DNA of 17,902 nucleotides from Nitrospirota bacterium (GTDB taxonomy: Bacteria; NPL-UPA2; JAADIA01). The stretch spans positions 1 to 17,902 of the forward strand of contig JAADIA010000093.1 of the NCBI GenBank assembly GCA_013151555.1, in the 5' to 3' direction. The translations under genes were made by a program, and so were the position numbers. Below are positions 729 through 875 of the stretch, piece by piece. The notes below the pieces were generated by a model, which made no database searches, was not told where the DNA came from, and saw only the letters and a list, made by a program, of their open reading frames with translations. Within the stretch, counting starts at the first letter, position 1. Every line of letters starts with the position of its first letter.

Positions 729-770
729 GTTAATTCGCACTTATCATCCGCCTCAGGCGGATGATGTGCT
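729..770 (+). repeat. Leader stem-loop element, copy 1
   Basis: A constant left arm GTTAATTCGCACTTATCA (729-746) and constant right arm TGATGTGCT (762-770) flank a 15-nt middle, TCCGCC-TCA-GGCGGA (747-761). The whole folds as GCAC (737-740) with GTGC (766-769), a TT bulge, then ATCATCCGCC (743-752) with GGCGGATGAT (756-765) around a TCA loop. The same arms recur in copy 2 with an unrelated but equally palindromic middle. Confidence 0.8.
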
Positions 771-786
771 ACTCACTTGCTTAGAC

Positions 787-817
787 AAGGGGAAATTCTC
801 TGCGATAATTTCCCCTT
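787..817 (+). other. Perfect 11-bp stem-loop between the two leader elements (hairpin B)
   Basis: AAGGGGAAATT (787-797) and AATTTCCCCTT (807-817) are exact reverse complements around a 9-nt loop, CTCTGCGAT. There is no long T tract after it, so it is not a standard terminator. It alternates with the two related stem-loops in the leader. Confidence 0.7.
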
Positions 818-827
818 AAGCTGCGGA

Positions 828-875
828 GTTAATTCGCACTTATCACTTAGCACAGCTAAGTGATGTGCTCATTAA
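828..875 (+). repeat. Leader stem-loop element, copy 2, abutting the ribosome binding site
   Basis: The left arm (828-845) is identical over 18 nt to copy 1 and the right arm TGATGTGCT (861-869) over 9 nt. The 15-nt middle CTTAGC-ACA-GCTAAG (846-860) is different but again a perfect 6-bp hairpin. GCAC (836-839) pairs with GTGC (865-868). Here the base extends further: TTAAT (829-833) with ATTAA (871-875). The final AA overlaps the AAGGAG ribosome binding site (874-879) of the ATG at 888, so folding could affect translation. Confidence 0.8.

Follow-up and report, generated by a model that had tools for sequence, protein, structure and literature searches.

Two hairpins in the leader of a ppiD-like gene

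The window analysed here, a stretch of 17,902 nucleotides taken at its full length, raises the question of why two elements with identical arms and different, perfectly palindromic cores lie ahead of a single gene. That gene, a putative PpiD/SurA-like periplasmic folding factor named as in the first-pass annotation, is an open reading frame of 535 amino acids on the plus strand (888-2495). Upstream of it, the 18-nt left arm GTTAATTCGCACTTATCA is present exactly at positions 729-746 and 828-845 (a spacing of 99), and the right arm TGATGTGCT is located at positions 762-770 in copy A and 861-869 in copy B. The cores read TCCGCC-TCA-GGCGGA (747-761) and CTTAGC-ACA-GCTAAG (846-860), respectively; both are perfect 6-3-6 palindromes, and five of the six pairs are changed on both sides, exactly as the first-pass annotation had described. 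Folding compared with dinucleotide shuffles gave z-scores of -5.3 for copy A and -4.5 (more exactly, -4.45) for copy B.

We refer to these two elements as hp1. Copy B (829-875, plus strand) is complete, with the arrangement TTAAT-TC-GCAC-TT-ATCACTTAGC-ACA-GCTAAGTGAT-GTGC-TC-ATTAA, and it stops at the Shine-Dalgarno sequence; the covariance model described below matches it at 831-873 with 53.9 bits (E = 1.5e-14). Its right arm runs on to CATTAA, so that the basal stem TTAAT/ATTAA is closed, an extension that had been overlooked, as had an imperfect hairpin, hp2, that is positioned between copies A and B and recurs together with them. Copy A (730-770, plus strand; TTAATTCGCACTTATCA-TCCGCCTCAGGCGGA-TGATGTGCT) is without the right basal arm CATTAA and is matched by the model at 732-773 with 25.7 bits. 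The hp2 hairpin occupies positions 771-829 on the plus strand (ACTC..GCTTA..AAGGGGAAATT-loop-AATTTCCCCTT..TTAAGC..GAGT), contains an inverted repeat (787-800/804-817) and recurs before hp1 with covarying stems.

The predicted promoter of the ppiD-like gene, a sigma-70-type sequence on the plus strand at 560-588 (TTGAAT-17-TATAAT, 10/12), is located upstream of the inserted elements, and this good match makes a leader of ~290 nt plausible. In two relatives (G001 and G004), a promoter-like TTGAAATTTCTTTTCAG..TATAAT stands directly before a ppiD leader of 25-70 nt. Orthologues of the gene are present in all eight same-phylum genomes tested. In another relative, G003, a reversed hp1 (G003:C6:2036-2091, L225) adjoins the ppiD orthologue at its stop codon, the opposite end of the gene. 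Elsewhere in the window, positions 410-480 hold a further cluster of short palindromic repeats (GAAATCGCAAAG..TAATTTC and GGAAATGCTTCGCATTTC) of the kind seen in other places as hp2 modules before hp1, and a minus-strand tRNA gene (152-224) adjoins the ppiD leader region.

A family with a conserved fold and variable letters

The 18-nt arm is not a chance repeat, as it occurs with up to three mismatches at 39 sites in the 1.8-Mb source genome, compared to none for a reversed control. A genome search with a covariance model had been proposed in the first-pass annotation; the model, built from 40 sequences, recovered 37 hp1 copies in the source genome and three to nine in each of four relatives of the same order or phylum (G001, 8; G003, 4; G004, 3; G005, 9), and it found none in 51 genomes outside the source phylum. 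A strict DNA pattern located hp1 in 101 of 285 Omnitrophota genomes, about a third of those sampled, with 0 for its reversed control. Searches of Rfam at gathering and permissive thresholds returned no relevant match, which agrees with the first-pass annotation, where no named family was recognised, and the literature searched contained no publication on repeats of this kind in Omnitrophota. The hp1 family is real and new, and its members are best read as miniature hairpin elements of a REP/MITE-like kind.

The family consensus is TNAAT-TC-GNNC-(bulge)-variable stem-GN'N'C-TC-ATTN'A, in which the N of the foot pairs with N' in most copies. Its constants are the TC/TC internal loop, the AAT/ATT beneath it and the G..C / G..C that surround the loop. 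When a search fixed only the letters AATTCG...CTCATT, even the arm stem turned out to vary, appearing as GTCC/GGAC, GCCC/GGGC, GCGC/GCGC, GCAC/GTGC, GACC/GGTC, GAGC/GCTC or GGCC/GGCC. In a hand-copied subset of the AATTCG...CTCATT matches, palindromes make up 47 of 98 from family genomes and 0 of 6 from control genomes. Over 140 sequences, the mean number of Watson-Crick pairs in the stem inside GCAC/GTGC is 8.4, as compared to 1.5 after shuffling, and in an alignment of 40 sequences 96.1% of the cells are paired, 9 of the 16 pairs are double-changed and the covariation score was reached by 0 of 500 shuffles. The proposal that structure rather than sequence is conserved therefore holds, because pairing is kept through double changes. 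Random, unpaired middles in other copies, which the first-pass annotation had named as the observation that would speak against a selected fold, were looked for and are not what is seen; the stems remain paired across copies.

This covariation across genomes is stronger evidence for structure than the difference between copies A and B, which had been interpreted as compensatory change. The part of that interpretation concerning conserved pairing stands, whereas the implied stepwise compensation is better replaced by a core swap. The cores of the source genome fall into a few classes, a feature also missed earlier, and the copy A core (TCCGCCTCAGGCGGA, 747-761, no strand assigned) is itself a dispersed palindrome; TCCGCCTnAGGCGGA is found with up to one mismatch at 37 places in the source genome, several of which are outside hp1 (e.g. 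L248, L251, L257, L260 and L261). Because this sequence is dispersed by itself, the A/B difference is most simply explained as an exchange between standing core classes. In one hp1 copy, C2, the core is missing altogether. Variation that keeps structure has precedent, as REPINs have conserved ends and a spacer that stays paired via compensatory changes (PMC3116915).

In the source genome many hp1 copies are paired as direct repeats at a distance of about 100 bp, with hp2 between them and the last copy ending just before the ribosome-binding site. The outer stem of hp2 is freely variable, and arms of at least 8 bp are present in 22 of 93 left flanks of hp1, as compared to 2 of 93 on the right and 1.3% of shuffles. 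A third hairpin, with CGAACTT or GAATTT at its end, frequently precedes hp2 (L065, L089, L093, L116-L119, L129, L159 and L161), so that the gene is preceded by three hairpins in tandem; some of these third hairpins show G-A loops in the opposite orientation. That hp2 precedes hp1 in many copies, and that an extended -10-like TGCGATAAT is present at 801-809, would suit a mobile promoter or leader cassette, in which the hp2-hp1 unit brings a promoter (TAGACA-16-GATAAT in hp2) together with a leader and spreads by benefiting genes. The promoter-like word occurs inside hp2 in many source-genome copies, and only there. We nevertheless consider such a cassette very unlikely, as the -10-like word is not preserved in many hp2 copies, the hp2 stems vary freely and lone hp1 copies are found within operon spacers. 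An integron attC site has a similar plan of box, spacer, bulge and variable tip; this candidate was rejected, as the R box (GTTRRRY / RYYYAAC) is absent and the base before TNAAT can be G, A, T or C.

Placement at gene boundaries and evidence for movement

Mapping against gene starts, also suggested in the first-pass annotation, was performed for the 77 hp1 copies with enough flank. In 51 of these (about two thirds), a start codon in the same orientation is located within 60 nt downstream, as compared to 6 of 77 in a mirror test. The distance to the start codon is mainly 11-18 nt, and a further set of copies, without a Shine-Dalgarno sequence, lies 3-5 nt away (distances of -9 and -7, caused by ATG words inside the element, were left out). 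The downstream genes are unrelated to one another and include essential ones, e.g. groEL and rpsP, and some copies directly precede tRNA genes. In several genomes the same hp1 end, in reverse, adjoins a stop codon, with seven copies positioned within -3 to +1 nt of it; a foot in which N is A, T or G itself contains a stop codon. Both copies in the window do lie in the ppiD leader, but the view that hp1 is a feature of that leader is not supported, as it is absent from the ppiD leaders of the relatives compared and precedes unrelated genes and tRNAs. One further copy is located just past the 3' end of a 23S rRNA 3' part (L120 1563-2664), which takes 1102 nt for 375 model positions and suggests an intervening sequence.

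Proximity to gene starts, the compensatory changes in hp1 and the essential genes among its neighbours are all features expected of a phylum-wide cis-regulatory 5' leader, i.e. an RNA hairpin by the Shine-Dalgarno sequence that a protein binds or an RNase processes, and that controls, for many genes, translation or the stability of the mRNA. We regard this explanation as unlikely, though deserving of weight, as hp1 also stands directly before tRNA genes, its target genes are unrelated, seven reversed copies sit directly at stop codons, its presence at orthologous genes is lineage-specific and G-T mismatches are as frequent as A-C mismatches. The last point derives from 13 isolated G-T and 13 isolated A-C mismatches among 1619 pairs (139 sequences, symmetric count; a tRNA control was too small to calibrate it), an equality that gives no sign of selection on the RNA of either strand. 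A wobble polarity towards RNA of the minus strand, hinted at by first counts, was dropped after the symmetric recount, and the choice of strand is consequently based on G-A loops and stability only. When read on the opposite strand the TC/TC loop is a tandem G-A pair, and the strand bearing these G-A loops (antisense relative to the gene that follows) has the higher stability in 90 of 140 sequences, compared to 23 of 140 for the other strand. Because the G-A-loop strand is more often the stabler one, single-stranded DNA is favoured, short of proof, and hp1 probably folds in this form. An RNA role is not favoured, given the equal mismatch counts and the location of the tandem G-A pairs on the strand opposite the mRNA.

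Copies within a genome are more similar to each other (0.594) than copies from different genomes (0.454), a difference reached by 0 of 1000 permutations, and the spread of hp1 within genomes as DNA is well supported by these sequence comparisons. In the groES-groEL spacer of G003, the groES stop codon is followed directly by the Shine-Dalgarno sequence and there is no hp1, whereas in G004, another species of the same genus, a lone hp1 is positioned exactly between the stop codon and the Shine-Dalgarno sequence, and its first bases provide the groES stop codon. The source genome also contains hp1 in this spacer. In the murA-rpsP spacer, hp1 or a close variant is present in 4 of the 23 genomes examined, and in some others the Shine-Dalgarno sequence comes straight after the murA stop codon. 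Such patchy presence at orthologous spacers records insertions, or losses, that are specific to lineages and fall precisely at gene boundaries, and the hp1 copies are apparently tiny mobile DNA elements. A genus-level search for close strains yielded one genome only.

As hp1 is short, palindromic, non-coding and dispersed, it could be thought a sequence-level MITE of a DDE-type DNA transposon, which carries terminal inverted repeats. Binding of double-stranded ends would conserve letters, not pairing. The interior of hp1 covaries, its ends consistently differ (AATTCG as compared to AATGAG) and comparing the groES-groEL spacers reveals no target-site duplication, all of which make a DDE-type origin highly improbable.

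A candidate single-stranded DNA mechanism and its parallels

On balance, we think it probable that hp1 is a miniature non-coding hairpin element that spread as DNA, is recognised as a folded single strand and is placed by an enzyme before the Shine-Dalgarno sequence. We infer a single-stranded DNA mechanism for its spread, in which the recognised object would be a fold comprising the basal stem TNAAT/ATTN'A, the symmetric TC/TC internal loop, the GNNC/GN'N'C stem, a bulge of 1-2 nt and an apical stem that is free to vary. The copying or moving of hp1 is probably the work of a nuclease or transposase, which may be an HUH enzyme that acts on lagging-strand DNA, and the target would be the gap that extends from a stop codon or promoter to the Shine-Dalgarno sequence of the next gene, entered in a preferred orientation. 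Because the ends can carry stop codons, an inserted hp1 could harmlessly end the upstream gene. The ppiD leader of the window contains, between promoter and Shine-Dalgarno sequence, two hp1 elements and their companion hp2, and any putative effect on translation would be secondary. Placement by the Shine-Dalgarno sequence or start codon is more regular than would be expected from plain insertion and purging, and a host function is therefore conceivable.

Another explanation is that hp1 constitutes a true REP/REPIN family moved by a resident RAYT (TnpA-REP, Y1) transposase. Both are short, dispersed, imperfect and extragenic hairpins with an internal mismatch or bulge, dozens of copies, conserved arms and spacer pairing kept by compensatory changes, the last being known from REPINs (PMC3116915), and RAYT-like Y1 genes are present in eight of nine genomes tested. 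However, the canonical REP feature is a GT[AG]G foot (PMC6006769), which hp1 does not have; its feet are TNAAT / ATTN'A with varying flanking letters. Moreover, copies A and B are direct repeats 99-102 nt apart rather than inverted, inverted doublets are absent, placement at gene starts is in one orientation, and even the arm stem GNNC covaries. No mobilising gene was found among the Y1 loci examined, as hp1 was present at none of 18 Y1-transposase (PF01797) loci in eight genomes, searched with flanks of about 1.5 kb, and no RAYT gene lies beside any copy found; G001 contains eight copies and no PF01797/Y1 match (the genome is 90% complete). A REP/REPIN origin thus appears quite unlikely. The RAYT-like Y1 gene of the source genome (L099 1420-2165) lies between inverted ends of its own, AAAGGGGACAGGCTAC (GGGGACAGGCTAC), and is a separate element.

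Miniature elements derived from IS200/IS605, with their subterminal hairpins, likewise have a mismatched hairpin beside a short sequence, and a strand-specific orientation would fit; in contrast to them, no hp1 family member with tnpA or tnpB was found, and hp1 on its own seems to form a unit. No full-length IS200/IS605 element with hp1 ends and tnpA was present among the Y1 loci examined, which come from incomplete draft genomes. Looser parallels exist further afield. The mobile hairpin and double-hairpin elements of Allomyces and sponge mitochondria occur singly, doubly or multiply in tandem, their mobility was inferred from species differences, and those of Allomyces are without reported flanking duplications (PMC2800124). 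They share with hp1 the tandem hairpins, the kind of evidence for mobility and the lack of flanking duplications, but they are also found inside rRNA and coding genes, and neither a TC/TC loop nor a preference for gene starts has been reported for them. The TAACTGA direct repeats of Beggiatoaceae are intergenic, lie a few nucleotides upstream of the start codons of unrelated genes, and are patchy across phyla, by a mechanism that is unknown (PMC4679880). They resemble hp1 in position and distribution, but they are heptamer direct repeats rather than covarying hairpins.

Dispersed hairpins such as REPs are known, whereas a hairpin of defined shape in which nearly all stem letters change, found across a large uncultured phylum at gene starts, is unmatched in the RNA library and literature searched. 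More tentatively, hp1 may represent a phylum-wide class of mobile single-stranded hairpins whose recognition depends almost entirely on shape (tandem G-A pairs, the bulge and a foot that is paired, with hardly any letters fixed) and which an enzyme places at gene boundaries, beside start or stop codons; this broader possibility is less likely to be right than wrong. If it is true, a single element family would be rewriting 5' leaders of numerous genes in both Omnitrophota and the source phylum. Leader structures in hp1-bearing genomes should not automatically be read as riboswitches, and hp1 offers a test bed for how mobile DNA recognised by its shape picks gene boundaries.
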